A stretch of 20,530 bases of DNA, from IMG/VR virus record IMGVR_UViG_3300008219_000140, positions 1 through 20,530 of that record. The stretch is one strand, 5' to 3'. The notes beneath the pieces are model-generated. The model ran no database searches. It saw only the letters and a program-made list of their open reading frames with translations, and had not been told where the DNA came from. The position numbers and the translations under genes are program-made. Below are positions 1 to 20,530 of this stretch, piece by piece (the stretch's first letter is position 1; each line of letters opens with the position of its first letter). The DNA comes from a virus.

Positions 1-11
1 GATATATAGAA

Positions 12-17
12 AAGGAG
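12..17 (+). promoter_or_regulatory. Strong Shine-Dalgarno sequence (AAGGAG)
   Basis: AAGGAG followed by an AT-rich spacer (atatata) closely resembles the gene-10-type ribosome binding site of T7. No ATG follows at normal spacing. The only codon in the downstream reading frame at a normal distance (9 bases) is ACG at 27-29. Upstream genes in the other two frames could end at the TAG at 7-9 or the TAA at 23-25, which fits a gene boundary here. Seen in sequence; use as an initiation site is inferred. Confidence 0.6.
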
Positions 18-26
18 ATATATAAT

Positions 27-2120
27 ACGCTAATTCTTCCGCATATTACGAATTGGACACCAACTAGCGCAGACGTGATCGCCGGGATTACACTGAAACT
101 AGGACTTCAGAACTCAACAATTCAGGGTCTTCTCGGTGCCGCAATTGAACGTGATGCGGAAGCCTTACTCCATCTAGGTGCTACTGGTCCTGGGGGTACT
201 CCACAAGGTGCTCGTGATGTAGGCGAGCGCACATGGGAAACGGGTTTTGCTGATCTTCCACGAGATGTATATGAAATCTCGGTAGACGATATTCCCGAGA
301 CACTCGTTCGTTCTTATCATATATATGAGAAGATTAGAGTCAAGGGAGTTAGCGGTGCAGAAGTCCTTGGAATTAAAGATACTCCTATTGCAGATATTTT
401 TGAAGATGCATACAGCATCAGAGATAATAATACTCCTGTAGCCGCTAGACTTGTTAATGCCCTGAGACAAAGACTCCCAGACGTTCTACTTCGTGGGGAT
501 GTCTCTGAGCTAAGTGCAGCGGATAGGGATGCTATTATTAAATCTCTTTCTGGACGTAATCTTGATCTTCATGAAGACGTAGTCCCAGGTATAATGGACG
601 ATCCCGTAGTTAGTGGGGTCAGACTGGTTTCTCCCCTATTACAGACTATCGAAACTGTAGGAGACTTCTTCGATTCTGATGCACAAAAACCGGATGCATA
701 TCTTTTTGATATCATTGGTCCCTTCCTCGCAGACGCTTACGGAAAATTCAGCGGATCAACAAGTCAGAAACGAGAGCAAACAATCACCTGGGCAGAGGAT
801 AATATTGTAAATAAGAAGGGAGTGTTTCTTCGTCTTGGACCCCAAAACTCTCTGTTTATGAACATAGACCCCGATGACATGACGCGTGGTCCAGAAGAAG
901 CTGACTTCTACACACGAATGGCAGAGGATCTAACAGAGTTGGCTGGTATACCAGAGAATCAGGGCCATGTCGAACTTGTGGTTATGACTGTGGGTGATAA
1001 GACAGTTGTAATTCCTAATCTTGTTGCCCCAAATGGTGTTAGAAGAGACTTGATTGGTACAAATATTAAGGCTGTATACAGTGATGACGACCTTCAGTAC
1101 ATGTATGAAGAGTATAAAGAAGCCGATGGCGAAGTTAGACATAACGAATATGAGCGAAGCAAGGGACTTGGAGAAAGAGCCGGTGATGCCTTTGGAACTT
1201 TCATGCATTGGTGGAAGAAGGTCAATATAGACAAATACCCGGAGAGGTTCTTCGGCGCACCATTTGGCGGGGGGCTCATGACAGAGCTTGGGGGTCATGC
1301 GGTAGTAACAGCTATAGAGTCTGTTATGGATTCAGCCCGCAACATGGAGACCGATGCTGATACCACCACGGAGCCTGCTGATGAACCCATAGTTGATACT
1401 GAACCCACCACGGTCCCTGATCCTGATACCACCACGGAGCCTGATCCCGATACCACCCCTGATGAGCAGGAGGAGCACTACCGTCTACTTAGGAAGGAGT
1501 TTGAGGAGACACCGCACATCCGTAAGATGTCTATTGAGCAGGCGCAGGAGATGGTGGATTATGCTAAGCGCGACCTTGAGACGCAGCGCGATCCCTCTAT
1601 GATTCCCCAGCTTCGCGCCGCAGTAGATGCGTGGTCCGACGCGATTAAGGAAGGGTTCTTCGATGGTAATACCGGCACGGAGGTGGATGTAGAGCCTGAA
1701 GAAATTCCCGAGTACGAGTCTTGGGAAGATCTAAGAGCAGCCATTGAAGCGGGTCTTCGTAAAGGGTCGATCCCCTTATCAAGGGTGGGGGGCGTATTGT
1801 ATAAGTGGAACACTCACGAGGGGACGTTTGAGCCTGTTGTAGAGCCTGATACTGAACCCAGCGACCATAAATCACACGTGCAGATTGAGGTGGATAAGCT
1901 TAGCCCTGAAGAACAAGTAGAATGGTTTATCACCACTGAGGTTGATCGTTGGGTTAGGGTCTCTCAGGGCCAACCTGATTGGCCCGACGACGGTACCGTC
2001 AAGCATCTTCGTGATTACTTGGAGGAGGTGCTAGCCGCACAAGATCCGCCTATTGCTGCGGAAGATCTTCGTGATGAAATTATAAAGCGGTTTGACGCCT
2101 ACACGGAAGACAATAAGTAA
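27..2120 (+). CDS. Internal virion-type protein, ~690 aa (T7 gp15 position)
   Basis: I do not recognise a defined domain. The case for a virion/ejection role is position and size: it lies directly upstream of the giant gp16-like gene (TAATG, one-base overlap) as T7 gene 15 (747 aa) lies upstream of gene 16. The first ~400 residues are a globular mixed region. Around residues 428-460 there is a low-complexity linker rich in Thr, Asp, Pro and Glu, followed by an acidic, Trp-containing, probably helical C-terminal part of ~220 residues whose DNA is noticeably richer in GC. The start is uncertain. The frame is open to the left edge; the first standard start codon is GTG at 75 without a ribosome site, whereas ACG at 27 sits 9 bases after AAGGAG. 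The gene could also begin before the window. It may instead be a tail or core protein of another kind. Confidence 0.6.
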   Translation, partial: TLILPHITNWTPTSADVIAGITLKLGLQNSTIQGLLGAAIERDAEALLHLGATGPGGTPQGARDVGERTWETGFADLPRDVYEISVDDIPETLVRSYHIYEKIRVKGVSGAEVLGIKDTPIADIFEDAYSIRDNNTPVAARLVNALRQRLPDVLLRGDVSELSAADRDAIIKSLSGRNLDLHEDVVPGIMDDPVVSGVRLVSPLLQTIETVGDFFDSDAQKPDAYLFDIIGPFLADAYGKFSGSTSQKREQTITWAEDNIVNKKGVFLRLGPQNSLFMNIDPDDMTRGPEEADFYTRMAEDLTELAGIPENQGHVELVVMTVGDKTVVIPNLVAPNGVRRDLIGTNIKAVYSDDDLQYMYEEYKEADGEVRHNEYERSKGLGERAGDAFGTFMHWWKKVNIDKYPERFFGAPFGGGLMTELGGHAVVTAIESVMDSARNMETDADTTTEPADEPIVDTEPTTVPDPDTTTEPDPDTTPDEQEEHYRLLRKEFEETPHIRKMSIEQAQEMVDYAKRDLETQRDPSMIPQLRAAVDAWSDAIKEGFFDGNTGTEVDVEPEEIPEYESWEDLRAAIEAGLRKGSIPLSRVGGVLYKWNTHEGTFEPVVEPDTEPSDHKSHVQIEVDKLSPEEQVEWFITTEVDRWVRVSQGQPDWPDDGTVKHLRDYLEEVLAAQDPPIAAEDLRDEIIKRFDAYTEDNK
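1359..1443 (+). repeat. Imperfect tandem repeat encoding a Thr/Asp/Pro linker
   Basis: The 19-base word gataccaccacggagcctg occurs exactly at 1359-1377 and again at 1425-1443, with degenerate relatives between them (gatactgaacccaccacgg) and after them (gataccacccctgatgag). The encoded protein reads as repeats of D-T/P-T-T-E-P-D. Such linkers commonly join structural modules and vary in copy number by slippage. Seen in sequence. Confidence 0.75.
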
Positions 2121-5100
2121 TGGCAATATATAATCAGCCACAAGATCCTCATCGAGATGAGCTAAGAAGACAAATAAGAGAGTCTTCTGTACCGAGAGCA
2201 TCGGAGGTATATGCCCAGGGTGTTCCGATGAAGGAGATGTTGATACGTCCCCAGAGCGGCCCGACTCTCTCAGATATTGAACAACAGAGGCATGATGCTC
2301 GCATCTGGCAAGCAAAGCTAGATGCTCTTAATGGTGGAGACATATGGAGACATGCTAAGCAGGAAACATGGACATGGCCCTCTGGGGAAGGTTTGGGTCA
2401 GGTTGAAGGCACGTTAGCTCTGTGGGATGAGATACTAGCAAAAGACGTTAGTGGTCTTAGTGTAAATAAATACGGATATGATGCTGCCGCTGAGCAGAGA
2501 GAAATACAAGCCCTGCTTGATGCTCATCCGCATATGACGCGAAAAGGTGTTGCTCGTCTTGCTGTTCTTGGTCGAACACAAGGTAGTACGGTTCCAACAG
2601 GGAGAGGTGTCGATATCACAGGCACAAGAGTGACCGGACATGGAAGAACACACACAGGGGGAACATTTGATAAAGACGCTCTTTTAATAAAAGATTATAA
2701 TGATCTACTTCCCGACTTGTGGAAAGAAGAGCCTGGGTGGGTTATATCATGGGAGGAGTTTAAAGACATAACCAAAGATGTTCCTGGTATTGCCCATGAA
2801 GATATTCGGAATGCTAAGAGTATGGCCCATGCAGTAGCTATTGCAGAACAAGCAAAAGCTCGAATGGCAGAGATTGGGATGATGCATGAAAAGTATGCGC
2901 TGGGACCAATGATGCTTGCATATATAGGTGCTGGTGTTGTTGATCCAGTTAATCTTTCTCTTATGATTGGAGGAGCAGGGGTATATAAACAAGCTGCTAA
3001 TATCGCTAAGTATAGCCGTCTTGCTCGTTTTGCAAGGGTTGGGGCACTCGCTGCTACTGAAGCTGCTGGTGTGGTAGGTGTTAGAGCAGCCGATGACCCA
3101 CTTCTTGATGAGAGGCATGTTATAATGGCTGCTGCTGTATCTGGAGTTATTGGCGGGACTATAGGCGCAGCAAGAAAGTCTACGCTGACACATGCTACCG
3201 AGGTAGAACCTGGAATGGCTCTTAACCGACAGGCATGGGATGATATGCCAGAAGCTCCTAAAGGAACTTGGGAGGGTGATTGGAATGTTCAGAGACCTCC
3301 AATCTTCTTTGAGCTTTCCCTTGATACAAGTGTGAAGTGGGGGAATGTTAAGGGCGGAAGAATTCTCATGGTTGGGGATCGTGCAAAGAATCGTGGTGGG
3401 TTCATCTTTGAGGGTGCAGATGGTAATACAGCATTTAGGGTTGATCAGGATGGCGTAGTTACATATTGGAGTACGGACTATAAAATTTCTGGTGTCTGGG
3501 ATACCAAAACAGGACGAGTCGTTTTCAATATGGAGACGATGGAACTAAAACAAACTCTTCGTGAAGCTGCTCTTGATATTGATAGTCCTGGTCATCCTCT
3601 TAAGGTTGAGCAACAAATTGAAGAAACAATCAGGGATTTCTTTAAGCTTGATAAACGAGAGGGTCAAGCGTTTAGAGATGGTGCGGTAAAAGCACAGAAG
3701 AACCGCAGTGTTCCCACACACGATGAACGAAGAATTGTACGGATTAAAGAGGAGCTACAAAAACCAGGACTAAGCGAGAAGAAGAAGGGCGAACTAATCT
3801 TTGAACTTCGGGATCTTGAAAAGCGTCCTCGTGTTGGTAAACCCAAATATCATGAATATGCCGATGACTTTGATATTGATGAAGAATCTGCCATTGGGGG
3901 AACCAAAGGTATAGTCTATGATAGCCAGGGTTTTGGTAAGATGCCCGCCCATGGTATTGAAACAATTGAAGCTTTATCCTGGAGAGCAGCGGAAGCACAT
4001 CTTGGACCCTTAGCTACTCAAGCGCAGAAGGAAAGCTATGCAAATATGTTCCACTACCCACTGATGCGGCATTGGAATACTATGACCGGACGCCTTGTAT
4101 TTGATAACTTAACTGAATATGATTTAATGCGTCAGGCAATGAAGTTTGGAATGCGAGATCCTGAAACTGGATTATGGATTCCTCGACGAGAGTTTGCTGA
4201 AATGGATCCTGTTGCTTATGCAAAGTTAACCAAAAGGCAGCGGGCTGTTGTTGCTAGAGATCAAGCAGCACTAATAAAAGAAAATAAAGAACTAGAGATC
4301 CAAGCAAATGCTGCATATAAGAAACAACTTATTGATCTTGGTGGGGGAACGAACAAGATGTTCCTTAATCGTATTGTTGTTGGTCCTGATACTAATGTTG
4401 ATAGTCCTATTGGTATTGTTACCAAGGTGTTTGATGACGGCACTGTAGAAGTAAACATGGGAGCAATCCATGGTCCGAGGGCAGAGCGTGTTGTTGCCCC
4501 GTCACAACGAGCAGACAGGGCAGCAAGAGAAGCAAAGCAAGCAGCGCGACAAAGAAAACAACAAAGACAGCAGATTCAGAGGGCTAAAGAGATTGGGCCG
4601 TATGAGAAGTACCGGGCACAGGGAGAATTAGATGCGTCTGGAGCGGAAGGTGCTATTGGTGGGGTAGTGATGAGCCCCCGACAAGCAGAACAAACAGCAC
4701 GGTCAGTTAAAAATAATGTGGGAGAAGAGGCTAGTGATGCCTACATGAGTGCATACCTTCAAGAATATACAAAACGTATTGAAGGTCACCTGGGTAGGGA
4801 GGTCACCATAAGTGAGAGTATAGGGGGATTTAAAAAGGCATGGCCGAACGCTGTCCGTATGGCAGAAGAGGAACTAGCACAGAGGCGGGCTGAGATCGCT
4901 GAAGCCCCAGGAGGCCCACCGACCCGTGAGACGGACCCAGGCGACCCCTACCGGCCCGTCGAGGAAGCCGATGTGATCCGAGACCCGGAATCGATCATGC
5001 ATCCTGAGAGGCTACAGACCTTCCACATGGACGAGGTGACCCCCCTATCTCCAAGCGTACTGAGTCGTGAGTTCCTTGAGACTGATATTAAGCTTACGAT

Positions 5101-8100
5101 TAGTAAGCTTGCTCCTCTTACAGATAGCCAGAAATCGAAGCTGTTTAATGGCGCACTTTCTGAGTTAACGCATCCTGAAAGACTTGTGATAGCTCAGAGA
5201 CTTCGGGAAGCAAAAGCCCTAGTAAAATCAATACGAGAGGAGGTAAAGAAGAAACAAACAGAGCTACTAAATATTAAGAAAAAACATGATAAGCTTCCTC
5301 CTTCTGTCTATGGTTATGGTGTTATTGTACCGGAAGAGATTGGTACACTTGGGCAGGGGACGACAGTCTGGATGACTCCCGATGAATTCTTAAGTATTTC
5401 GACGCCGTATGGGTGGGAACCAGATATCAGAAAGCTTAAGAAGCTGCGTAAATCTCTATATCCTAAAGATCATCCTACGCTACGGGCGGACGGGGAGTCG
5501 GGTAGGGGTGAACTATTAAATACCGCACCATCTATTAAGCTACACGCAATGTTTGGACGGGCTCCCGGACCCGCCCCAGGATCACGTCTTTCTGGTCATA
5601 TTGTAAAGGCACATCAGCATGAAGGACGGCATAGGGCTATCGTTCTTAAAGAAATGGGGCAAAAATATATTCCGGTTCTCGTTACGATGCGCGGTACTCC
5701 TTCTGAGAATCTTACCCTTAAAGATTTAGAGCTTGCGTATCACGCCGAGATTGAAAGACTTTCTCTACATAGTACATTACGGAATGCCTATGATGATGCA
5801 TTCTTCCCGACACATATTGAGTCAGAATTTACAAAAGAGACGATACCGTTCCCACGCCATGTAAGTGAAGAAGCCGTTGAGTCTATTCGGGAAGGTAAGT
5901 CTCTTGTGTCTGTAAAGGGCGAACTACTTCGACGTTTTGATAATGTTGAGGACGAAATATTCAGACTCAAGACAAAGCATGAAGAGGCCCAGGCCCAGGC
6001 AGTTTATCTTTTTAATAGGCATAAGGCTCTGGGTAGATTCCGAGGTAAGCGGACGTTTAATCTTGTCTTTGATTCGATTGATGAAACTACATGGTCTGGA
6101 ATGCATCCCTGGCCGAGCCTCGCTGACCCCAAGAAACCTGGATGGGCAATACAAACAGAACATGGTCTTGCGGGGGTTAAAGGAACTCCGTATCGTCCAG
6201 AGTTTTTACCGGAAGGAATCCATGGAGATCCTACGTTTTGGGAAATAGGTGGAAAGCAGGGGTATATTTCAACGGAATTAGTCCAACCCAGTAATCCCGT
6301 AGGTTTCTCTAGAGGAACACCTGATGACGAAGGGTCAGCCGTGTTCCATGCCTCACACGATCCAAATTATTTGGGGCCCATATACAAGGATGTTACTGTA
6401 GTTCCCAAACACATCTGGGAACGAGTCCCCGTATTAGACGCTGGTTTTGGTACATCCCACTTACTGGAGGTACTACGGTCAATACAAAAACATAACTTGG
6501 TGGACCCTGTACCGAAGGCATTTAGAAATTCTCTAGAAATGAACGGCATGAAGCCTCGACAGGATGACTACGAGGCTATGCGTATCTATAAGATGTATGA
6601 ACTTCTTGAGAAAGCTGGAGTTCCATTTGAAAGATGGACGGTCGTTCAAAGCTTTAGAAATCTTACCTATGATGAGGCTGCTGGTGCGATGAGTAAGGGA
6701 AAGATTGTACTTACTGGGGATCGTATTCAAGAACCATTGATCATCCCTTTCCAAATTAGTGCAAAAGCCCTAGACAAGGTTAATCTAAACAACGTTGCTA
6801 AAAACCTAAAGAAATTACTAAGTAGAGAAAAGGATTATACACCGAAGCAGTATGCTATGGAGTACACGGGTGTTGGTCCTAGTGGAGAACCGTTTACCCT
6901 CGACGTATATCCCGATTTACGTGTATATGTAGACCCCGGAACAGGGGATCTTGCTGGTATTCCAGGGCTTGGAGAGAAGGCAAGTGTTCTATATTCTGGA
7001 GGAGAGCCGGGTGTTGTTGGTCCCAGAAGTACAGAGGCACTGTCAGAAGCTACCCGAAGTGGGCTTAACTGGAATGGACCAAAAGAGTATAAGCTCCGAG
7101 TTCGGGGAGGCTCTGAATTTGGTTATGATCTAAAAGCAACAAATCTTAAAGATGCGAAAGCAGAGATTAAAGAGTTCTTCCTTGATCGTGTTCTTCGTAA
7201 AGAGAGTGAAGAGCTTAAAGAATACTGGAGAACACAACCAGAACGTGAGGCTCTCGCTGAACAAGGAAGAATTGAGGGCGAGGTTCTTATGATTGCTCTT
7301 GGTATTCGTCGTCTAGAGCTTGAACAAGTTTCTGATATTCTTTCTCATATTCCTGAACACCTGCGGATGCGTCGATGGGATGAAGTAAATGCTCGTATTC
7401 GTAGTCTTCTTAATACATGGGAACCTGAAGAGATTCCCGTAGCATCTACAAGACATATTGATCCTGGGGACGTTCAGATTATTCTACCCAACGGGAAGAT
7501 AATCGATATGGTGGACCTTCCGAAAGTACATAAGCGTCCAAAGAAAGTTGTAATAGAAGCTCTGGACTCCATTGCAACGTATGAAAAACGAATTGGTAAG
7601 TGGCAAGATAAGATTGCGAAAACCAGAGATCGTATTGTAAAAATTAAAGATGCTCTAAAATCAAAAGATCTTTCTAAGGAAGATAAGGCAACACTAAATA
7701 AAGAACTAAAGGAGCTACAAAATAATAATAGATCCGCTAATGCTAAATTGCGGAAGCTTGAGAAAGATCTTGCTGATGTTGAGAAGGTAGAAGCTGCTGC
7801 TGAGCCCTGGTGGCATGCTAAGCGAGCACCTCAAGAACGCACCGGCACCTTTATATATGACCAAGAATCTGGTGAGATGTTCTTTCTTCGGAGTAAGAAG
7901 ACCGGAAAGACACGATCTGTTGATGATATTATCGACGAAGCAGAAAAAGCCGGAGCAGCAGCACGGGCAAATAAGGCTTCCGTACGTAATGCAGAAAACC
8001 CTGGGAGACCTAGTCCCGAAGCATTTGATGATACCCCGCATGGCATGGATGAGATTGTTGATGGGGGTGCAAGGAGCTTTGACGACACTGGTTGGGGAGC

Positions 8101-10624
8101 AAAGGTAACAGGGATCAAGCTAGGCATTAAGGGCATGTTTAATTCGATAGGGAATAAGACAAAGAATATGCCTCTTAGTGGTATGTATCGTTGGATGGCA
8201 ATGCGAATCGGGGGTGGTCTTGTTGATGAAGTAGATCAAGGGTCATGGCGCGGACCACTCAGAAAGGGCAAAACGCTTCGTCCGGTTGAGGGAGAATCTC
8301 CTTGGGGGCGTCGAGGTATTGAAGAGGGTAGAGATGAAATGGTTAAGATGCGCCTCGCCTTCTTTGATCATATCCAGAAGGAATTCCAGACATGGAGAAA
8401 ACTAAATCAGAAAGGTTTCATGTCTTACTGGACAAATACCGCCCAAGATGAATTCGGTGAGATCCTTGGGCGAGTCAAAAATGATAGGACAGGAAAAGTT
8501 CTTGCTGAACTTCCCGAGCATTCACATGATGTTATTCGTCGTGGTGTACAAAAGGCTATAGAACACTTCGATGGTGAGCTTAAGTTCCTACAGAAGTATG
8601 GCAAGGGATGGGAAGATGTTATATCTGATCCTCATTATGTCCCCAGATTCTGGGATCGTGCTAAGATCGCAATGCATAGAGGAAGGCTTGGACTAAATAT
8701 TGCTGATGAGGAACTTGCAAAGGTATTCCAAAAAGGTCTTCTTGCTGCCAACAAGCAAGCTAGGGAAGCTGCACAGGCAATCGGAGAGAAGGGTCCACGC
8801 GAACTGTCTGAAGCAGAAGCATATAAATTTGGAGAAAAGTTCCTTAAAAGTATTGGAAATAATAAATTCCGTCTCAATCTCATTAATGATGCTTCACATC
8901 AGAAAGCTACAGCAATAGAGCTTGCAAAAATTCTTGAGATGAATTTCGGATATACAGCGCAAGAAGCCCTAGATATTGCTGCTACATTTAGGGTTACCGA
9001 AAAGAAAGCACGGCATCAAATGTTTAGAATCCGTTTGGATACTGAGATTCTTACTACTGTATTAAATAGGAAGGGCGAACCAGTTGATGTGCGTCTTGGT
9101 GATCTTATTGATTATAATATATTTACTGGAGCAAGGAGATATGCTCGACATACATCCAGTAAGATTCTAATTCAGGATATGATCGATGAAGCAAACATAA
9201 AACTTGGACGACCCAACCACTTCAAGAATCTAGATGATATGGTGGAAGTGGTCCTTCACGATCTAGAGCATAATAAAGGCGTTACAGGAAGAGAGCTAGA
9301 GAGGTGGACAAAGTATATGGATTCTTTGGCGAGAATCGCTCGTGACCAACCATTTAGTGAGGCTACAGACGCCGCTCTCGGAATGCAGTTGTCCCGACAG
9401 ATTGCATACAGCATGGGACATGGTGCGCTCTTTGGTGTTTCTGCTCTTGCAGAGGCAAGCTCTGCTAACTGGGTACAGGGAGTTAAGGGCTTTATAGAAA
9501 GTATGCCCGCACTTCGTCGCATGGTTGGTGGTGTGACAGAAGTAGATAAAGTGACACTCAGGGAGTTTGCGGCCTCGCTTGGTATGGGAATACGAGAACG
9601 GATTATCCCCAGAATGGACCTGATGGGTCGTATTGTTGAAGAGGGTGGTAGCACAGCACTGGGACGACAGGCAGTAATGCGGCGACTTTGGATGGGAGCT
9701 TCACGTATGATGACAGAAGTTTCTGGTCTTATGAAAATAACCGAGTGGAGTGATCATGTTGCTTTAAAACGGCACATGGTTCACTATGGTAATATGATGA
9801 TTCGAGGAGAATATCCCAACGATATTCGTCTTGTTGATATGGGACTCACACGAAAAGAGTGGGATCGAATTTCAAGGCAGGTAAGAAAACAATATAAACG
9901 ACAAACATCTGTTGATGGTGTTGATACATATCAATACAACTTCAGTGAATGGGATGACCAGGGAGCAGTAGACCTCTTTGCCCAGGCAATTCAAGCAGAA
10001 GTAAAATCTGTGGTACAGAGACAGAGTCGTATGGATATGCCAACATGGTATTTCGCAAACCCAACAGCACACGAACTCACTAAGATTGCTTTGCAGTACC
10101 GTGGGTTTGGAATGTCTAGTATTAATAACTACGTAGTAAGAAACCTACGTGCCAGCGATGCAAGGGCTCTTTATGTTCTTGCCTCATCTGTCGCTGGTGG
10201 TGCTCTGGCTTTTATGATTAAAGGTATGCTCGCTCACGAAGATACCCCAGAAGGACGAGAAAAATTTAAAGAACGCATGAGCCTCGGTTCAATTGCGCGT
10301 GGAGCCTTCCTACATTCAGGCTTTACTTTCGGGCTAGAGAACGCAACACTTTTTTCTGGTCCTCTGTTGGGTTATGATGTATATGGTAACTACCATAGAC
10401 GAGGACTTTCTAATTCATGGATGGACCAAGTACGTACCATGTCTTACGCTGATGATGTTACTGGTATGATGCAATCCTTTATTCAGACTGGAGTCCTAGA
10501 TAATAGAGATTTCACACAAGCTGACTACCGAAGAGTACAACGAGTTTTCGGTATTATGAGACACCCACTAATCGCTCCATTCGTCAAAGATCTTGGCAAT
10601 GGTTTACCCACTAAATCTAGATAA
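2120..10624 (+). CDS. Giant mosaic internal virion / DNA-ejection protein, 2834 aa (gp16-like C-terminus)
   Basis: A single uninterrupted frame, over twice the length of T7 gp16 (1318 aa). Regions visible: a charged N-terminus (1-240); a glycine/alanine-rich hydrophobic segment about 260-354 that could be membrane-active; a small beta-type segment about 747-790, followed by an Ala/Gln/Arg-rich helix (~793-830); a Pro/Asp linker in GC-rich DNA (~928-980); a ParB-like segment with HEGRHRA (~1064-1209); an unassigned mixed region to ~1800; a long charged coiled coil (~1813-1897); a segment with DPHYVPRFWDRAKI (~2170), a motif style known from large phage virion proteins; and a C-terminal ~400 residues with hydrophobic helices (~2684-2708) resembling the gp16 family. 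The role inferred is ejection with the DNA and bridging the cell envelope, with the extra modules possibly acting in the host. No lytic transglycosylase motif was found. Start: ATG overlapping the previous stop, with GGAAG about 10 bases upstream. Confidence 0.75.
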   Translation: MAIYNQPQDPHRDELRRQIRESSVPRASEVYAQGVPMKEMLIRPQSGPTLSDIEQQRHDARIWQAKLDALNGGDIWRHAKQETWTWPSGEGLGQVEGTLALWDEILAKDVSGLSVNKYGYDAAAEQREIQALLDAHPHMTRKGVARLAVLGRTQGSTVPTGRGVDITGTRVTGHGRTHTGGTFDKDALLIKDYNDLLPDLWKEEPGWVISWEEFKDITKDVPGIAHEDIRNAKSMAHAVAIAEQAKARMAEIGMMHEKYALGPMMLAYIGAGVVDPVNLSLMIGGAGVYKQAANIAKYSRLARFARVGALAATEAAGVVGVRAADDPLLDERHVIMAAAVSGVIGGTIGAARKSTLTHATEVEPGMALNRQAWDDMPEAPKGTWEGDWNVQRPPIFFELSLDTSVKWGNVKGGRILMVGDRAKNRGGFIFEGADGNTAFRVDQDGVVTYWSTDYKISGVWDTKTGRVVFNMETMELKQTLREAALDIDSPGHPLKVEQQIEETIRDFFKLDKREGQAFRDGAVKAQKNRSVPTHDERRIVRIKEELQKPGLSEKKKGELIFELRDLEKRPRVGKPKYHEYADDFDIDEESAIGGTKGIVYDSQGFGKMPAHGIETIEALSWRAAEAHLGPLATQAQKESYANMFHYPLMRHWNTMTGRLVFDNLTEYDLMRQAMKFGMRDPETGLWIPRREFAEMDPVAYAKLTKRQRAVVARDQAALIKENKELEIQANAAYKKQLIDLGGGTNKMFLNRIVVGPDTNVDSPIGIVTKVFDDGTVEVNMGAIHGPRAERVVAPSQRADRAAREAKQAARQRKQQRQQIQRAKEIGPYEKYRAQGELDASGAEGAIGGVVMSPRQAEQTARSVKNNVGEEASDAYMSAYLQEYTKRIEGHLGREVTISESIGGFKKAWPNAVRMAEEELAQRRAEIAEAPGGPPTRETDPGDPYRPVEEADVIRDPESIMHPERLQTFHMDEVTPLSPSVLSREFLETDIKLTISKLAPLTDSQKSKLFNGALSELTHPERLVIAQRLREAKALVKSIREEVKKKQTELLNIKKKHDKLPPSVYGYGVIVPEEIGTLGQGTTVWMTPDEFLSISTPYGWEPDIRKLKKLRKSLYPKDHPTLRADGESGRGELLNTAPSIKLHAMFGRAPGPAPGSRLSGHIVKAHQHEGRHRAIVLKEMGQKYIPVLVTMRGTPSENLTLKDLELAYHAEIERLSLHSTLRNAYDDAFFPTHIESEFTKETIPFPRHVSEEAVESIREGKSLVSVKGELLRRFDNVEDEIFRLKTKHEEAQAQAVYLFNRHKALGRFRGKRTFNLVFDSIDETTWSGMHPWPSLADPKKPGWAIQTEHGLAGVKGTPYRPEFLPEGIHGDPTFWEIGGKQGYISTELVQPSNPVGFSRGTPDDEGSAVFHASHDPNYLGPIYKDVTVVPKHIWERVPVLDAGFGTSHLLEVLRSIQKHNLVDPVPKAFRNSLEMNGMKPRQDDYEAMRIYKMYELLEKAGVPFERWTVVQSFRNLTYDEAAGAMSKGKIVLTGDRIQEPLIIPFQISAKALDKVNLNNVAKNLKKLLSREKDYTPKQYAMEYTGVGPSGEPFTLDVYPDLRVYVDPGTGDLAGIPGLGEKASVLYSGGEPGVVGPRSTEALSEATRSGLNWNGPKEYKLRVRGGSEFGYDLKATNLKDAKAEIKEFFLDRVLRKESEELKEYWRTQPEREALAEQGRIEGEVLMIALGIRRLELEQVSDILSHIPEHLRMRRWDEVNARIRSLLNTWEPEEIPVASTRHIDPGDVQIILPNGKIIDMVDLPKVHKRPKKVVIEALDSIATYEKRIGKWQDKIAKTRDRIVKIKDALKSKDLSKEDKATLNKELKELQNNNRSANAKLRKLEKDLADVEKVEAAAEPWWHAKRAPQERTGTFIYDQESGEMFFLRSKKTGKTRSVDDIIDEAEKAGAAARANKASVRNAENPGRPSPEAFDDTPHGMDEIVDGGARSFDDTGWGAKVTGIKLGIKGMFNSIGNKTKNMPLSGMYRWMAMRIGGGLVDEVDQGSWRGPLRKGKTLRPVEGESPWGRRGIEEGRDEMVKMRLAFFDHIQKEFQTWRKLNQKGFMSYWTNTAQDEFGEILGRVKNDRTGKVLAELPEHSHDVIRRGVQKAIEHFDGELKFLQKYGKGWEDVISDPHYVPRFWDRAKIAMHRGRLGLNIADEELAKVFQKGLLAANKQAREAAQAIGEKGPRELSEAEAYKFGEKFLKSIGNNKFRLNLINDASHQKATAIELAKILEMNFGYTAQEALDIAATFRVTEKKARHQMFRIRLDTEILTTVLNRKGEPVDVRLGDLIDYNIFTGARRYARHTSSKILIQDMIDEANIKLGRPNHFKNLDDMVEVVLHDLEHNKGVTGRELERWTKYMDSLARIARDQPFSEATDAALGMQLSRQIAYSMGHGALFGVSALAEASSANWVQGVKGFIESMPALRRMVGGVTEVDKVTLREFAASLGMGIRERIIPRMDLMGRIVEEGGSTALGRQAVMRRLWMGASRMMTEVSGLMKITEWSDHVALKRHMVHYGNMMIRGEYPNDIRLVDMGLTRKEWDRISRQVRKQYKRQTSVDGVDTYQYNFSEWDDQGAVDLFAQAIQAEVKSVVQRQSRMDMPTWYFANPTAHELTKIALQYRGFGMSSINNYVVRNLRASDARALYVLASSVAGGALAFMIKGMLAHEDTPEGREKFKERMSLGSIARGAFLHSGFTFGLENATLFSGPLLGYDVYGNYHRRGLSNSWMDQVRTMSYADDVTGMMQSFIQTGVLDNRDFTQADYRRVQRVFGIMRHPLIAPFVKDLGNGLPTKSR
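4901..5060 (+). other. GC-rich seam inside the giant gene
   Basis: Bases 4901-4980 contain 57 G or C in 80 (71%), while 5221-5280 in the same gene contain 18 in 60 (30%). The encoded stretch is a Pro/Asp/Glu-rich linker (GGPPTRETDPGDPYRP). A sharp compositional change at a linker is what joining of modules from different sources would leave. Composition was counted by eye; origin is inferred. Confidence 0.6.
5090..5110. repeat. Perfect 8-bp inverted repeat (aagcttac / gtaagctt)
   Basis: AAGCTTAC at 5090-5097 and GTAAGCTT at 5103-5110 are exact reverse complements separated by gatta. The repeat is in coding sequence just right of the GC-rich seam and left of the ParB-like segment. It could be chance, a recombination footprint or an RNA hairpin. 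Seen in sequence; no function shown. Confidence 0.4.
5310..5745 (+). other. ParB-like segment within the giant protein
   Basis: Residues ~1064-1209 show the order VWMTPDEFL, then a gap, then a glycine-rich turn, HEGRHRA, and an IPVLV strand. Many ParB/sulfiredoxin-superfamily proteins have the pattern H/D-G-x-H/R-R-x-x-A-x-x-x-x-G-x-x-x-x-I/V-P-V. In phages and plasmids such domains are often carried inside very large polyvalent proteins delivered with DNA. The motif is seen; membership in the superfamily is my reading, and nuclease or NTP-binding activity is not shown. Confidence 0.5.
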
Positions 10625-10632
10625 TAATTATT

Positions 10633-10923
10633 ATGAAACACTTAACTATGCTTACATCTGCTGCTTCCGCATCATGCATTCTACCCGCTTGTGCGACTGT
10701 TGGTAAGATGCTCCCTGGTGGAGAAGAGCAGGCTGTTGCAGTCGGCAATACCCTTCTTGACAACGCTCCTGCTCTGGCAGAACAGACGGGAATGCTTACG
10801 ACAATGTTTACTGGTAATCCAGCCCTCGGTGGTGCCGTAGCTACAGCACTTGCTGGTGTCGCTGGTATCTTTGCTGCTAGAAAGATTAAGGCAAAGAAGG
10901 ACGCTGGTGCGCCTCCCGCTTAG
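10633..10923 (+). CDS. Small lipoprotein with C-terminal membrane helix, 96 aa
   Basis: The N-terminus is a short basic start (MKH), a hydrophobic stretch and a lipobox-like LPAC, giving a lipidated Cys at residue 20 if processed. The mature part is short and ends in a Gly/Ala-rich membrane helix (about residues 63-83) followed by a Lys/Arg tail (ARKIKAKKD). A protein tethered to the outer membrane at one end and the inner membrane at the other would have unimolecular-spanin architecture, although the periplasmic part (~40 residues) seems short for spanning. Alternatives are a holin-type protein or a virion-associated lipoprotein. It starts 8 bases after the giant gene with no clear ribosome site (AT-rich leader). 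Its end overlaps the next lipoprotein gene. Pro at -2 of the lipobox is tolerated but not typical. Real gene likely; function uncertain. Confidence 0.6.
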   Translation: MKHLTMLTSAASASCILPACATVGKMLPGGEEQAVAVGNTLLDNAPALAEQTGMLTTMFTGNPALGGAVATALAGVAGIFAARKIKAKKDAGAPPA

Positions 10924-11662: not shown

Positions 11663-12655
11663 TCAGTCCAGCCACACAAGACTATCAGAAATAGGACCAT
11701 GCTCTTTATTAAAGAAGACAACCCTCTGACAAGGTCTACCGGATTCTCCGATGATCTCTAGGGCGAAGTCGTTATCACTCTCTGTTGTTCCATTCGCATA
11801 GAACATCTTACTCTGTATTACTCCTGCCATCGGACGGTGGAAGTGCCCAAGGAAGATAGACTCCCAAGGTTCCGGGATACTCGCCCCCCAACCGGCTACC
11901 TTCTTTGCAAGGCCCGTAAGTGGATAGCCTCCAATCCCTCCACCACCAGCAATCTGATCCCCGTGTACTAGCAGCAGGTTATGTCCCTCTACATCGACAA
12001 CACGATAGAAGGAGTCATGATCTACATCCCATGTCACTCGATCATTCTTTAGGCAATTGGAGACAAGAAGCCTTGTAATGATTGTGGCTATCATGTCGAA
12101 GTTTGTTCTGGGTGAGGCAGAGGAGTTCTTAGGAGCAGAGCGTCCATGGTTGCCAGGGACAGCAGCGACATGAACCTCTCTGAAATATGAACTCATCTCG
12201 ATAATAAAATTAGAGATGATGGCTGGAGCTTTATTAATTGCCTGCTCCCACAAATCACCGTCCACCGTCCATGGTTGATGAGAGAAGATGGTCTCTCCTT
12301 CCACAATATCTCCACCAACGAGAACAACACAGCGTTCAATCCTTGCGCTAGTCCTACGGTTGGTCACAATTTTTTCTACCGTTTTTGCAAGCTGCTTCAT
12401 GCGTGTAGCTGCTACTGTGAAATCATATGTCGGAGTTTTCTTTCCAATCTGTGTATCACTAATATGAACCACACAGGTTTCTTGCTCTTTTATTTTTCTC
12501 TTATCTTTTCTCGGTAGGTTCGGGGGTGACCATGTGAACCCATTAAGTGCATCGTCTACTCGTCGAAGCACTAAGGATTCTATAGACTCCCTCGCATCTA
12601 ACCGTCTGGATACTCTACGTAACTCTGCTTCTAGGTGGTTTATCTCATTCGTCAT
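11663..12655 (-). CDS. Calcineurin-like metallophosphoesterase, 330 aa
   Basis: The core motifs of the two-metal phosphoesterase family are in order: HISDTQIG (Asp67), GGDIVEG (Asp116), GNHGR (Asn169, His170), VHGDQ (His231) and GHFHRP (His271, His273). The usual D-x-H of the first motif is D-x-Q. A ~60-residue basic, helical N-terminal extension (coiled-coil-like, then a KDKRKIK cluster) precedes the core. The substrate cannot be read from sequence; phage members include nucleases and nucleotide or RNA-end phosphatases. It is the last gene of the leftward block and overlaps the preceding gene by 11 bases. ATG at 12655 follows GAGGA by about 9 bases and is chosen over an in-frame TTG 15 bases upstream that lacks such a site. 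Confidence 0.88.
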   Translation of the reverse strand: MTNEINHLEAELRRVSRRLDARESIESLVLRRVDDALNGFTWSPPNLPRKDKRKIKEQETCVVHISDTQIGKKTPTYDFTVAATRMKQLAKTVEKIVTNRRTSARIERCVVLVGGDIVEGETIFSHQPWTVDGDLWEQAINKAPAIISNFIIEMSSYFREVHVAAVPGNHGRSAPKNSSASPRTNFDMIATIITRLLVSNCLKNDRVTWDVDHDSFYRVVDVEGHNLLLVHGDQIAGGGGIGGYPLTGLAKKVAGWGASIPEPWESIFLGHFHRPMAGVIQSKMFYANGTTESDNDFALEIIGESGRPCQRVVFFNKEHGPISDSLVWLD

Positions 12656-12944
12656 CGAAGTCTTCCTCAAAAAGTGTTGAAGTCATTGGATACATCGCTA
12701 CCTTCTTAATTGCTTTAAATAAGAAGTGATATGATTTAGGGTCATCTTCCATATCTAGTCCTAGAATTGCCATCTGTCTGATTGTTTGCAGTCTTTCTGC
12801 CGCATCACCGATTACATTCTCTAGAAGTTTATTAGTTATTACGAGTTCAGCCATCATAACGGGGGCTTCTTTTCGTCCCTCCTCGCTATCATCTTCTCCA
12901 TACCTATCACTCGTATCATTTAAATTCATATTAAAATCTATCAT
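12645..12944 (-). CDS. Acidic protein of unknown function, 99 aa
   Basis: I do not recognise a family. The N-terminal ~28 residues are polar and acidic and probably disordered (DRYGEDDSEEGRKE). The middle and C-terminal parts look helical, and the protein ends in EEDFDDE. ATG at 12944 follows AGAGG by 4 bases. A longer in-frame version would run antisense through the small terminase gene and is rejected. The start codon shares the central CATG with the ATG of the divergent small terminase. The 3' end overlaps the metallophosphoesterase start by 11 bases, so the two are probably translationally coupled. A role near packaging is suggested by place only. Confidence 0.6.
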   Translation of the reverse strand: MIDFNMNLNDTSDRYGEDDSEEGRKEAPVMMAELVITNKLLENVIGDAAERLQTIRQMAILGLDMEDDPKSYHFLFKAIKKVAMYPMTSTLFEEDFDDE

Positions 12945-13158
12945 GGATCCTCTTAAAAAACTCTGGGAACTTCTCATCTCTACCCTGATCGACCGGATTG
13001 AGAGCGGGGAATACACCACACAAGACCTGAATGTTGCTCGTCAAGTCCTGAAAGACCACGGCATCTCTGTAGATACCCCCGAAGATACACCTATTGGTAC
13101 TCTTAATGAGATTCTTCCTTTCACTACTGTCGTAGATGAAGATAAAAAGACGGGCTAA
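12943..13158 (+). CDS. terS: Probable terminase small subunit (DNA maturase A-like), 71 aa
   Basis: The protein is a short helix-rich N-terminus (MDPLKKLWELLISTLIDRI), then DLNVARQVLKDHGI, a Pro/Thr turn, and a terminal LPF patch. I know this pattern (ARQ-x-LKD-x-x-I ... PL/PI-x-x-L ... LPF) from small terminases of T7-like podoviruses. T7 gp18 is 89 aa. The small subunit recognises concatemer DNA and directs the large subunit. It is the only rightward gene in the leftward block and exactly fills the gap between two leftward genes: its stop (TAA) overlaps the TAG of the large terminase in a shared CTAA, and its ATG is inside the CATG shared with the 99-aa gene. No ribosome binding site or promoter is evident upstream, which is odd. 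Identification is from remembered family pattern. Confidence 0.7.
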   Translation: MDPLKKLWELLISTLIDRIESGEYTTQDLNVARQVLKDHGISVDTPEDTPIGTLNEILPFTTVVDEDKKTG

Positions 13159-14816
13159 ACGTCGAACCATCCATCTGACCTATGTTCTCTTCCATTTCTA
13201 GGAGCAAGGATATCAAACATCTTATCTAGCTCATCTTGGAGTCGTTCATCTCGTCTATCTTTAATAGCCTCATCAGCATTCTTAGCCATAGACTCAGCCC
13301 AGTATGCTACTGCCATAGCTACAGCATCTAGCTTATCATCATGATCTAGGCTACGCTTCTCCCTTGTAAGGTGAGACAACTGGTACATGAGACTGTACTG
13401 TGTTGCGATGTCCGGTGGAAGCAGCAGCGTCTGATTGTAATCCTTCTTGATCGCTTCTGCGTTTATGCAGAGCCGGTGCTGATTCATGACTGGCTCCAAC
13501 GTGTCTGCTATGCGCTTCTCTTTGTGTGTCATCGCCGTTACCTCCTCAATTGTACATGGATATAGCTCATGTAAGTGGGGCTTGAGTAGCTCACTGAACA
13601 TACCCCCACCGTAGTTTGACTCAGTGAGTATGAGGTTTACTTCATATTGTTTAGCATAGGTAGCTAGACCACGCATCACCGGCTCCGTAAATCCTTCAGT
13701 GGTTCCTCCCCAATCTACGAGGTAGAGATAACCATTTAAATACTTTACGATTGCCCAGGCAGTTTCATCTTTGCCTCGTCCACTTGGGTCGATAGCCATG
13801 ACCGATCCAGAGTACGGAATGATTTCGCCCACAAGTCGTTGTGGTCTGTAGAACTTATCCCGTTTAAAGCCGAGGTTTGGTAGTCCAATCCACTCTTCTT
13901 GTGTGCCCCATACGATTTTCTCTGGACCCAGGAGTGGGTCGGTATCCATAACAATAAGATCAGATATACGTAGAGGATAACGATCAAGATCGCTAAGCCG
14001 AACATCTAGTTGGAACTGGAGTTGGAATCCTGTTCGTCCATAGGAGGCTTCTCGATCTTGTAGCTCTTCATCAGAGAATCTATCAGGGTCTGTTGGAGTT
14101 CCAGCACCTCCTTCAAGGTCGTTGACATACTCAGCAAGCATTCCCTCGTAGATCTTTTCATCATCGGGAATTCTCGCTGGATAAATTCTGACATCATAGT
14201 TACGAGCTGAGAGTTCAGTATATATAGATTCTTGAGATTGCGGTGTTCCAAGAAAAACAATTTCTCCTACTTCGGGTTTAATGATTGCTTCAAATTCTTT
14301 AACAGAGTCTGCCAGTTTAGACCTCGCACCCACTGTACTGCTGTTCCCAGGCACCTCCACATCATCAGCAACAATAAGATCGGCGCGGCTACCAGTAAGC
14401 TGACCAGTAATGCCAACAGACTTACAAGAAGGAGAATGGGCTGCGGAGGTTGGACCAACATCCCACGCAATCTTAGATGTTCTTTGATCTTCATTTGGAA
14501 TAAGGTGTTTGAGTACGGGCATCTCCCGTACAAGTCTATGACAGAAGGTGGAAAAGTCATCAGCCCTTGACTTGGAGGCTGATACAACGAGAACTTTCTT
14601 CTCTGGATCAAGATATAAAGTCCAAAGAACAAAGGCAGATGTGATCCATGATTTACCTACACCTCGAAACGCTTGAACCATTCTTCGTCTAGGTCCATGC
14701 TGTAGATATTCTGCAATATCATACTGTACTGGTGTGGGATCAGGAAGACCCAGGTGTTTCCATGTTACATATAGGAAATTCCTAAAGTCTTTTAGTTCTT
14801 CTTGTATCTCAGTCAT
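13155..14816 (-). CDS. terL: Terminase large subunit (T7 gp19-like packaging ATPase/nuclease)
   Basis: This is the DNA-packaging motor. Walker A is QAFRGVGKSW (~48-57) and Walker B is ADLIVADDVE (155-164), with acidic pair DD before E. The C-terminal RNase H-like nuclease shows AIDPSGRGKDETA (~340), ILTESNYGGG (~395) and DHDDKLDAVA (~493), supplying the metal-binding acidic residues. Length is 553 aa against 586 for T7 gp19. The C-terminal tail is charged (Arg/Asp/Glu-rich), where portal contacts are expected in the family. The start ATG lies in an 8-base overlap (ATGACTGA) with the stop of the preceding gene and has no strong ribosome site of its own, so coupling is likely. Its partner small subunit lies immediately downstream but on the opposite strand. 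Confidence 0.95.
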   Translation of the reverse strand: MTEIQEELKDFRNFLYVTWKHLGLPDPTPVQYDIAEYLQHGPRRRMVQAFRGVGKSWITSAFVLWTLYLDPEKKVLVVSASKSRADDFSTFCHRLVREMPVLKHLIPNEDQRTSKIAWDVGPTSAAHSPSCKSVGITGQLTGSRADLIVADDVEVPGNSSTVGARSKLADSVKEFEAIIKPEVGEIVFLGTPQSQESIYTELSARNYDVRIYPARIPDDEKIYEGMLAEYVNDLEGGAGTPTDPDRFSDEELQDREASYGRTGFQLQFQLDVRLSDLDRYPLRISDLIVMDTDPLLGPEKIVWGTQEEWIGLPNLGFKRDKFYRPQRLVGEIIPYSGSVMAIDPSGRGKDETAWAIVKYLNGYLYLVDWGGTTEGFTEPVMRGLATYAKQYEVNLILTESNYGGGMFSELLKPHLHELYPCTIEEVTAMTHKEKRIADTLEPVMNQHRLCINAEAIKKDYNQTLLLPPDIATQYSLMYQLSHLTREKRSLDHDDKLDAVAMAVAYWAESMAKNADEAIKDRRDERLQDELDKMFDILAPRNGREHRSDGWFDV

Positions 14817-15141
14817 CTACATCACTGCCAGAAACAATACAATGTAGGAACACGAGGTAATTAATAAGATCATGAACACTGTCAGTAAAGGTTTCATCAC
14901 CAACCAAGCCTCCTTCACTATTGACATGGGTGATGAGTCTGCCAAATTTGTCCGCAATACGAGCGAGGATTCCCGTCTCTGTCGTGCAGATCTGGAGTTG
15001 CTCGACCCTACGAAAGTTCGTAAAGGCATCACCATCACCTGAGTAATTCTTGATCTTATCGTGGAGAATATCATACGCATGGTCGCAGAGCCTTTCATGG
15101 TTCCTTAGCACTTCTAATACTGATTCTGATAATTGGGTCAT
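14809..15141 (-). CDS. DUF1599 / Nmad1-like all-alpha protein, 110 aa
   Basis: The core FRRVEQLQI...TGILARIADKFGRL...VGDETFTDSVHDLINYLVFL matches the pattern I know for DUF1599 (nucleotide modification associated domain 1): an aliphatic helix with RIADK-x-x-R, then DE-x-x-x-D-x-x-x-DLINY. Related all-alpha NTP pyrophosphohydrolases (MazG-like) use similar acidic helices to bind metal and nucleotide, so a role in nucleotide processing or a DNA modification pathway is possible. It sits between a 67-aa unknown (2-base gap) and the large terminase (8-base overlap), inside an operon of replication and packaging genes. No obvious base-modifying enzyme is in this window. Family call from memory; activity inferred. 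Confidence 0.6.
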   Translation of the reverse strand: MTQLSESVLEVLRNHERLCDHAYDILHDKIKNYSGDGDAFTNFRRVEQLQICTTETGILARIADKFGRLITHVNSEGGLVGDETFTDSVHDLINYLVFLHCIVSGSDVDD

Positions 15142-15143
15142 TC

Positions 15144-15347
15144 TTAGATGTCCTGGTCTTGTAGCACTTCTAGATCAAAGTGGGCTTTCCCGGACTCATC
15201 ATACTTATATACCTTAGCACTACGAAAGGTATATTCATTATTGTTTGAATCTTTTATTAGTATCGTTATACCATATTCAATCTTCTTTGGATCACGACTC
15301 GTCTGTACCGTCAGGTATGTAATTCTATTTGTTATTTTAGGTTTCAT
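15144..15347 (-). CDS. Hypothetical protein, 67 aa
   Basis: No family recognised. The protein is basic and looks mostly beta-stranded (KIEYGITILIKDSNNNEY, FRSAKVYKYD), with a C-terminal acidic patch. ATG at 15347 is in an ATGA overlap with the stop of the exonuclease gene and follows TGGAG by 6 bases, so it is preferred over an upstream in-frame start inside the exonuclease gene. The gap to the next gene is 2 bases. Its place in the operon suggests replication or nucleotide metabolism, but nothing in the sequence says which. Confidence 0.6.
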   Translation of the reverse strand: MKPKITNRITYLTVQTSRDPKKIEYGITILIKDSNNNEYTFRSAKVYKYDESGKAHFDLEVLQDQDI

Positions 15348-16123
15348 TCTGGGCTCCAGAGTATCGGCTTGTTCTCCGTCCAATCATATTCTCCTGGTCG
15401 TAGGATTCGTGCAAGTCTTGCTGTTATTAGGGCATCTTCGTTGTGTAGTCCATAGTCTTCGTAGGCTTTTAAGATAGTTCTCCAATTAACTCCTCCAGCC
15501 TCCAGAATTTTTTCGGCCTTTTTCGGTCCAACACCGGGGATACCAGTGTACCCATCGGCACGATCCCCAATAAGAATTTGTGTATATAGCAGATAGTCTG
15601 CCTCCTTATGTGTAACACCGAACACACCCCGCGCTGGTTTCCGGGGCTGATAATGTAACCCAGCAATTGTGAGAAGATCCTTATCATCAGAAACAATAAT
15701 AGTAGAAGAACCGGAGTTTAATCCCATAAGATCATCAGCCTCTAATCCATCTACAGCGATGCTTGGATATGTACGCATCAGAAATTCCTTCGCCTCATCA
15801 GAGCACGTAGGTCTGCGGATGTTCACCCGATTCGCTTTATAGCTTGAGTCCACCTTTGTTCTGTAGTTCTTCTTTAACGTCCAGCACAGGATGAAACGTG
15901 TAGTGGCTAGGTTCTTACACACACCACGCAGCAGATTCGTAAAGAGAGCTATGACTTCAGCATCATCGGTAAACCGTTTAGGTTCTTTTCCCCCGAAGTC
16001 AAATGTCCTCTCTACACTATAGGCTGAGCGATGATACATAATATCAGCATCAATTAATAGTAATTGATCAGGATCAAAGTCAGGCTCAAATGAGTCTATA
16101 TATTTTTCTTCTTGTTTATTCAT
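15344..16123 (-). CDS. 5'-3' exonuclease, flap/T7 gp6-like, 259 aa
   Basis: This enzyme would remove RNA primers and trim 5' ends. The acidic metal-binding positions of the FEN superfamily are visible: LLLIDADIMYH (Asp25, Asp27), GLEADDLMG (Glu128, Asp130, Asp131), STIIVSDDKDLLTI (Asp146, Asp147, Asp149) and LIGDRADGYTGIPGVGP (Asp187, Asp190), the last leading into a helix-hairpin-helix DNA-binding element. T7 gp6 is 300 aa. About 20 acidic residues precede the first motif. It lies just downstream of the DNA polymerase (9-base gap), and its stop overlaps the start of the 67-aa gene. The ATG has an AT-rich leader without a clear ribosome site. Confidence 0.92.
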   Translation of the reverse strand: MNKQEEKYIDSFEPDFDPDQLLLIDADIMYHRSAYSVERTFDFGGKEPKRFTDDAEVIALFTNLLRGVCKNLATTRFILCWTLKKNYRTKVDSSYKANRVNIRRPTCSDEAKEFLMRTYPSIAVDGLEADDLMGLNSGSSTIIVSDDKDLLTIAGLHYQPRKPARGVFGVTHKEADYLLYTQILIGDRADGYTGIPGVGPKKAEKILEAGGVNWRTILKAYEDYGLHNEDALITARLARILRPGEYDWTENKPILWSPE

Positions 16124-16132
16124 ATTTATAAT

Positions 16133-19545: not shown

Positions 19546-19855
19546 CTCGCTTTCTAACACGCTCTTGGTCAACTTTAAATTCCTTAATAATCTTGGGGTT
19601 ATCATCTTCTAAGATTCCACACTTAACTAGTGCATCACCTATTAGTTTAAAAGATCCAGCAGCATTGTCCCAGTCCATTAGACGCACACTACGACGAGTG
19701 TACTCCACTGTAACTGGTCCTTCAATCAGGTCACATGGATACGCTGATTGAATCTCGACCACTAGATTGTTCTGTAGCTTCTTGCGCACTGCCCAGTGCA
19801 TGCGGAGAAGTCTGTTTATACCCGGAGGTTGGGTTTTGCTATTGATGATAAGCAT
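19496..19855 (-). CDS. RusA-like Holliday junction resolvase, 119 aa
   Basis: The pattern MDWDNAAGSFKLIGDAL...ILEDDNPKI is the catalytic heart of RusA-family resolvases: Asp61 and Asp63 in D-x-D-N, Lys70, and Asp84/Asp85 in the following DD. PPGINRLLRMHW upstream fits the family N-terminus. E. coli RusA is 120 aa. It would cleave branched intermediates of replication and recombination before packaging, the job of endonuclease I (gp3) in T7. ATG at 19855 lies just 9 bases after the strong hairpin described separately; the only upstream start candidate, TTG at 19876, is inside that hairpin. No ribosome binding site is evident. The 3' end overlaps the primase-helicase start by 50 bases. Confidence 0.85.
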   Translation of the reverse strand: MLIINSKTQPPGINRLLRMHWAVRKKLQNNLVVEIQSAYPCDLIEGPVTVEYTRRSVRLMDWDNAAGSFKLIGDALVKCGILEDDNPKIIKEFKVDQERVRKRDEQGFTVKIYQTYLMS

Positions 19856-19864
19856 ATAGATAAA

Positions 19865-19900
19865 TGGAGAGGACAAGCACCGAAGTACCTGCCCTCTCCA
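19865..19900 (-). terminator. Strong UUCG-capped hairpin between SSB and RusA genes
   Basis: Read on the minus strand, arms of 16 bases pair without mismatch (three G-U pairs) around a cUUCGg tetraloop. The plus-strand arms are 19865-19880 and 19885-19900. The hairpin begins 25 bases after the SSB stop and is followed by TTTATCTATATG, a weak T tract that runs into the RusA start. It may act as a leaky terminator, a 3'-end protector for SSB mRNA, or an RNA processing site. A competing shorter hairpin can form from CCTCCC, TTT and GGAGAGG at its upstream edge. The structure is read directly; its function is inferred. Confidence 0.7.
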
Positions 19901-19925
19901 AAGGGAGGAGGAGACGTTATTCTAT

Positions 19926-20530
19926 TTAGAAGTCACTCGCCGCAATTTTTTCTGTCTTCGGTGCTGAAGGCTTACCGTTTCCAAATTCCTTTGCAAACGA
20001 TTTACCACCACTACCGGCTACATATTCCTTAAGCTCGTGGATCTTAACCGCTTCAAGACGAAGGGAGATACCCAGTCCCAGCATAGGAACATAGTACGGA
20101 CGAATGAATCCACCAATACTGATAAGACTACCATTACCAACAGACCAATCTGTTTTGTCCCAGTCTACCTCATCACCATTAGGCATGTATGTGGTAATCG
20201 GGGGAGTAGCAGGATACTTATCATTGGCAACGAAAGCAGGACGCTTGAACTTCAGAGCAAAGCGACCATCATCAAGTTCTTTCCAAGGATCATGGGGTGA
20301 GAGCTTAGGATTTTTATCCATCAAGTCCTTCACCTTTTCAACCATACCATTACAGTCATCAATGATTGGCTGAGCCAGGTCTTTAGGAAGAATTACTGAA
20401 GCAAGGAAGTTTCTTTTTTCTTCATTCTTCCATTGCTTAGGTGTTTTAAGAGAGCACCATTCTGCATCCCCAGTGGGAGTAATGATTTGCACTTGATGTT
20501 GTGAACCATCAAATCTAGATTCTTTAGGCA
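19926..20530 (-). CDS. Single-stranded DNA-binding protein (T7 gp2.5-like), 5' end cut by window edge
   Basis: This protein would coat single-stranded DNA at the fork. TPTGDAEWCSLKTP near the start, then a Phe/Lys-rich strand (ALKFKRPAF), PPITTYMPNG and the block GNGSLISIGGFIRPYYVPMLGLGISLRLEAVKIHEL resemble the gp2.5 OB-fold order, especially the last strands before the tail. The frame stays open to the right edge (at least 12 further codons upstream of a GTG at 20492), so the true start is probably outside the window. The C-terminus keeps the terminal Phe (AASDF) but has only one acidic residue in the last six and a basic/Pro stretch before it, unlike the long acidic tail of gp2.5. It is followed by the UUCG hairpin. 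Confidence 0.78.
   Translation of the reverse strand, partial: PKESRFDGSQHQVQIITPTGDAEWCSLKTPKQWKNEEKRNFLASVILPKDLAQPIIDDCNGMVEKVKDLMDKNPKLSPHDPWKELDDGRFALKFKRPAFVANDKYPATPPITTYMPNGDEVDWDKTDWSVGNGSLISIGGFIRPYYVPMLGLGISLRLEAVKIHELKEYVAGSGGKSFAKEFGNGKPSAPKTEKIAASDF

Follow-up and report, generated by a model that had tools for sequence, protein, structure and literature searches.

A giant T7 gp16-type ejection protein with a variable inserted segment, a candidate delivery slot for early-acting domains

Ejection proteins of the gp16 type have been reported at lengths of 609-1337 residues (PMC8954989). The DNA analysed here, a 20.5-kb virus record (20,530 nucleotides, hereafter the window), carries one frame of 2834 residues for which a preliminary description, made from the letters alone, had proposed a gp16-type ejection protein more than twice the size of that of T7; genes for a T7-type terminase, DNA polymerase, primase-helicase and Gp2.5 lie on the opposite strand. 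The locus raises the question of what the additional sequence is, and whether it may be something that the phage carries into the cell.

The frame (ATG at 2120, TAA at 10622-10624) has no internal stop and is, at 2834/1318 residues, 2.15 times as long as T7 gp16, as had been described. At the stop-triplet frequency of the window a frame of this length has a chance of ~1e-65. Its GC content by codon position (0.60/0.41/0.34) follows the pattern of coding DNA, and the homologue in the related phage L004 (2366 aa, 52% identity) keeps the frame, with pN/pS values of 0.26-0.63 over the whole length. Codon-position composition and the comparison with L004 identify the ORF as a real gene under purifying selection. 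As the window is a metagenome contig, an ordinary gp16 might have been joined to an unrelated ORF during assembly; however, beyond the unbroken frame and the selection acting on it, independent contigs of other phages have the same architecture and can be aligned through much of the middle, and another two contigs are 100% identical over the C-terminal third. The relatives with the same architecture refute such an artefact, to which we attach a negligible probability. The features of the locus, all predicted, are the following:

3..2120, plus strand: gp15 homologue, its 5' end cut by the window, with a C-terminal extension of ~320 residues (identity to the L010 protein)
2120..10624, plus strand: giant gp16-type internal virion (ejection) protein, 2834 aa (frame, gp16 profile and hhalign matches)
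2120..2725, plus strand: N-terminal part, residues 1-202, at the place of T7 gp16 1-251, no SLT (Pfam, T7 alignment)
2726..3172, plus strand: residues 203-351, homologous to T7 gp16 252-404 (TMH I, the first inner-membrane region; hhalign, S42C7 match, hydrophobic peaks)
3302..4609, plus strand: start of the inserted segment, residues 395-830, alignable in L004 and partly in G008 and G007, no known domain (sequence comparison)
5348..5722, plus strand: ParB/sulfiredoxin-fold module, residues 1077-1201, motif MTPDEFL...HEGRHRA...IPVL (HMM, AlphaFold2, Foldseek, PDB profile)
6095..6799, plus strand: fast-evolving region, residues 1326-1560, present in L004, with a faint GNAT-like motif (sequence comparison)
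6857..7579, plus strand: residues 1580-1820, conserved with L004 (sequence comparison)
7586..7789, plus strand: coiled coil, residues 1823-1890 (heptad signal, Pfam coiled-coil models)
7853..10621, plus strand: gp16-C block, residues 1912-2834, common to all giants, with 2134-2833 aligning to T7 621-1315 (phrog_342, 7eyb, hhalign)
10160..10234, plus strand: hydrophobic segment in the T7 TMH II region, residues 2681-2705 (hydropathy, T7 alignment)

Directly upstream, and with its stop overlapping the start codon of the giant, lies ORF1, which has 27% identity (E 1e-18) to a 915-aa protein encoded between the gp14-position ORF and gp16 in L010, a record that overlaps L004 at 99.7%. The genes of L010 (capsid, tail tube, nozzle, gp13, gp14-position ORF, gp15-position ORF, gp16) stand in the T7 order (gp10-11-12-13-(14)-15-16), gp14 and gp15 being assigned from location and length rather than from a profile. 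Judged by ORF1 and this order, the giant follows gp14/gp15 in the virion operon, as T7 gp16 does.

The T7 gp16 profile (phrog_342) matches residues 2083-2823 (E 1.7e-56), in agreement with the gp16-like end noted earlier, and a profile of the C-terminal blocks of the giants finds the T7 gp16 chain 7eyb in the PDB (E 7e-8). Profile-profile alignment (hhalign) with the gp16 proteins of T7, GAP227, yong1, RHEph01 and Lo5R7ANS as partners equated residues 2134-2833 of the window giant with T7 gp16 621-1315 (prob 99.95%, E 2e-37) and residues 203-351 with 252-404 (prob 96%, E 2e-9), the two blocks being colinear in the window giant and T7 gp16. Residues 203-351 are also matched by the S42C7 protein, and the hydrophobic glycine/alanine segment of the preliminary description falls here, as Kyte-Doolittle peaks at 259-288 and 332-352 inside the homologue of T7 gp16 TMH I. 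Overall, the giant is homologous to T7 gp16 (internal virion protein D; PDB 7EYB) in both position and sequence, and shares with it the order of the TMH I region and gp16-C and a gp15-type gene directly upstream; by membership of this family, its packaging and ejection are putative. The gp16 of another T7-like phage, S42C7 (Autographiviridae, AP013541; L006 11020-15450), has the same N and C blocks, but it is encoded by two genes, lacks a large insertion and begins, in the product of the first gene, with a pesticin-type lysozyme domain.

No N-terminal transglycosylase was found in the window giant by Pfam, and the seven contigs of the lineage yielded no SLT domain (controls were detected; the records may be fragments). 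Residues ~86-200 are missing from the L004 homologue. To our knowledge, the N-terminal lytic transglycosylase is present in T7 gp16 and absent in P22 and Sf6, so that it is not universal.

The main difference from T7 gp16 (1318 residues) lies between the two blocks. In the hhalign comparison the TMH I and C blocks are 1,782 residues apart in the window giant against 216 in T7, which points to the gain of a segment of ~1,500 residues (about 1,560 net) between the TMH I region and the gp16-C block. When N and C profiles made from the giants themselves are used, the gap is 1,487 residues in the window, 1,122 in L004, 1,305 in G007 and 1,514 in G008. Of 11 complete homologues of ordinary type, taken from T7-like phages and from bacterial genomes, nine have gaps of 76-148; the remaining two, in which the TMH I match is short, have gaps of 402 and 439. 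A homologue truncated at its 5' end has a gap of 123. Giant gp16s of 2009-2685 aa were found in four related phage lineages (L004, G006, G007 and G008), taken from contigs with a terminase 71-83% identical to that of the window. Three of the four have both blocks and the same insertion point as the window; in G006 (2009 aa) the C block is present and the TMH I block went undetected with the giants' profiles. Large ORFs (1,400-2,037 aa) in the neighbourhood of less closely related TerL genes had no match to gp16 profiles and were therefore left out of the count of giants. A search of IMG/VR with the middle segment alone returned only the L004/L010 phage. The literature searched, which excluded most subscription journals, contained no description of a giant gp16 with such an insertion.

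The ParB-like motif reported earlier was located within the insertion, in two pieces (VWMTPDEFL at 1083-1091 and HEGRHRA at 1167-1173). The copies of this module in G007 and G008, used as queries against IMG/VR, gave 23 loci, and a module HMM was built from 16 of them, with the window, G007 and G008 left out. The HMM recognises the window (36.6 bits, E 3.6e-10, where the best of 2,000 shuffled giants scored 6.3 bits), G008 (E 1.5e-15) and G007 (E 3e-14), and has no match in the L004 or G006 giants; the window's module is split by an insert, and its halves match separately. As judged by this HMM, the inserted segment varies between relatives, with the module present in the window, G007 and G008 and absent from L004 and G006. 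The separate middle of ~1,500 residues that had been suggested is supported by these comparisons, in which a segment stands between two conserved gp16 blocks and changes its content among relatives as the ends stay.

In an AlphaFold2 model (18-row alignment) the module core, with pLDDT 82-92, is predicted as beta-alpha-alpha-beta-beta-(GRHR)alpha-beta. Foldseek against the PDB placed sulfiredoxin and ParB in the lead, with Noc, PadC, free serine kinase, SbnI and Osa lower; the best match, 3cyi (E 2.6e-3, prob 1.0), is moderate, with TMt 0.52 and an rmsd of 7 A over the whole chain. Viral matches (BFVD) included large proteins named as ParB/Sulfiredoxin, N-acetyltransferase-domain or tail-lysozyme. 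Independently, a PDB profile search gave SbnI, a ParB/Srx-fold protein, at the top (E 0.018). Among family profiles, PF02195 (ParB_N) matches two of 18 module-family members (best E 0.035) and not the window's own segment, and PF18763 (ddrB-ParB) matched none of five phages, the window included, at E<=10. The alpha/beta core and the conserved GxHR arginine, which characterise the ParB/Srx superfamily, are both found in residues 1077-1201. In the model and the profile matches, residues ~1077-1201 are established as belonging, in fold and with no catalytic assignment, to a phage ParB/Srx family that occurs in polyvalent-type proteins: in L122, a phage protein 3,972 or more residues long, an ART-PolyVal domain (4e-10) stands immediately before the module. 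In a further phage protein, of 1322 aa (L121 8359-12324), the same module precedes a Gly/Ala-rich hydrophobic segment that looks like the membrane region of an ejection protein.

The preliminary description had weighed separate domains against one continuous helical gp16 fold. The ParB-like part departs from the latter, as it is predicted to form a separate alpha/beta domain; for residues 1040-1800 as a whole, the AlphaFold model (4-row alignment) had a pLDDT of 39 and no usable fold, and we base no domain claim on it. Residues 1320-1560 had no Pfam, PHROG or PDB match. A GNAT domain at ~1326-1560, suggested by the motif GFGTSHLLEVL...YELLEKAGVPF and more distinctly by its L004 counterpart, is not claimed, as Acetyltransf_1 and GNAT structures did not match the region and no profile, PDB, phage or 385-genome match was obtained. 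The coiled coil was confirmed, its strongest heptad signal lying at ~1852-1890 and Pfam coiled-coil models matching 1823-1882; the beta-type segment of the preliminary description (~395-510) stays putative. Other candidates were likewise set aside: three ADP-ribosyltransferase-like stretches in G007 (L107 ~6700-8850, gp16 ~800-1500; YHGT ... GFDA ... LFDP), two of them 29% identical to one another, were spotted by eye and have no profile or statistical support; a zincin-like HELGH motif within the insertion of G008 (L110, gp16 ~1210-1235) was also seen by eye without profile support; and a 'DarB-like' tblastn match in PBC5 (E 0.9) was not used.

How the insertion has evolved bears on whether it is cargo. 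Its residues 395-830 (about 40-54% identity) and 1580-1820 are together kept with L004 at roughly 40-57%, above the expectation for free cargo, and the window's gp15-position protein is itself extended, by ~320 C-terminal residues of acidic repeats (DTTTEPDP-type) absent from its L010 homologue. These points, with the DNA binding of T7 gp16-C (PMC8954989), would suit a purely structural segment, forming a larger internal core or a longer ejectosome for a different envelope, with the ParB-like fold recruited as a DNA- or nucleotide-binding piece that holds the incoming genome. On the other hand, the ParB-like module comes and goes among related phages and recurs in unrelated large phage proteins, one of them with ART-PolyVal, and the parts of the giant that diverge most from L004 are inside the insertion (residues 1326-1560, at about 28-44% identity, are among the less conserved). 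We regard the structural explanation as unlikely.

Another possibility is that the giant is cut during assembly like P1 DdrB, so that the gp16 ends alone would enter the virion and the middle would act late or in assembly. Phage polyvalent proteins are known to be processed (PMC5512222), and the two genes of S42C7 gp16 indicate that the halves can work apart. However, the Pfam search of the window giant revealed no recognisable protease domain, and its HEGRH, which resembles an HExxH zinc protease motif, is the ParB-family GRHR motif, the residues before GRHR varying in the family. Such processing is, in our estimate, decidedly improbable.

We favour instead the reading, to which we would assign a probability of about 0.6, that the inserted segment is a delivery slot for early-acting domains, because the T7 topology, the precedent of N4 and the parts found in polyvalent proteins all point this way. 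In T7 gp16, residues 1-228 are periplasmic, TMH I (243-410) crosses the inner membrane, gp16-C (411-1118) is cytoplasmic and TMH II (1119-1290) is back in the membrane (PMC8954989). Because the insertion starts just after the TMH I homologue, it would, by this topology, be cytoplasmic after ejection. The third ejection protein of N4 is a vRNAP of ~3,500 residues, the polymerase of which is believed to regain its fold in the cytoplasm (PMC12633501), and phage polyvalent proteins, whose common components include ParB/Srx domains, GNATs, ARTs and peptidases, have a predicted role early in infection (PMC5512222). On this reading, a T7 gp16-type protein has gained its variable segment between the TMH I region and gp16-C; the segment would leave the capsid with the protein, pass through the gp14/gp15 channel and fold again in the cytoplasm beside the incoming DNA, functionally comparable to the RNA polymerase of N4 vRNAP. 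The segment contains at least one separate module, the ParB/sulfiredoxin-fold domain (a kind predicted elsewhere as nuclease/NTPase), and unassigned modules besides, and it changes between related phages; once delivered, it may have enzymatic activity and a role against the host.

The resemblance to known systems is partial in each case. N4 vRNAP (gp50) is also a giant protein at the gp16 position of the ejection operon, with its own activity working in the cytoplasm; the N4 group reportedly has no recognisable sequence similarity with T7 ejection proteins, whereas the window giant keeps the gp16 framework and has the extra segment inside. It shares with polyvalent proteins (P1 DdrB/DarB type; Iyer et al. 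2017, PMC5512222) a very large size and the ParB/Srx-superfamily module, but has a T7 ejection-protein backbone, no PF18763 match and only one established module, the polyvalent class being defined by several effector domains per polypeptide. A wider proposal, which we put forward tentatively and rate at slightly short of even odds, is that a clade of T7-like phages has made gp16 a modular injection vehicle, exchanging host-acting domains at a fixed site behind the first membrane-crossing region and so placing effectors in the cytoplasm before phage gene expression. A gp16 of 2834 residues with a variable segment at one site would mean that the T7 ejectosome, besides N4 vRNAP and P1 head proteins, can carry other activities into the cell; if true, it points to a definite site in T7-like phages at which early counter-defence can be sought, and to a precedent in nature for delivering proteins via a podophage ejectosome.

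Some minor observations concern the surrounding genes. The replication and terminase genes of the window (11663-20530) are convergent with the structural genes, an arrangement that differs from T7. Directly after gp16, at the holin position, a small protein of 95-96 aa with no family match is encoded in the window (10633-10923) and L004 (7321-7608). L010 has a small M78/SprT-like metallopeptidase-type ORF (2167-2502; phrog_1233, 5.8e-19) between its tail tube and nozzle genes. The G007 contig also codes for a T7-type RNA polymerase and, downstream of its giant gp16, for a Mom-type DNA modification protein (L107 12103-12672; PF25680, 6e-30).
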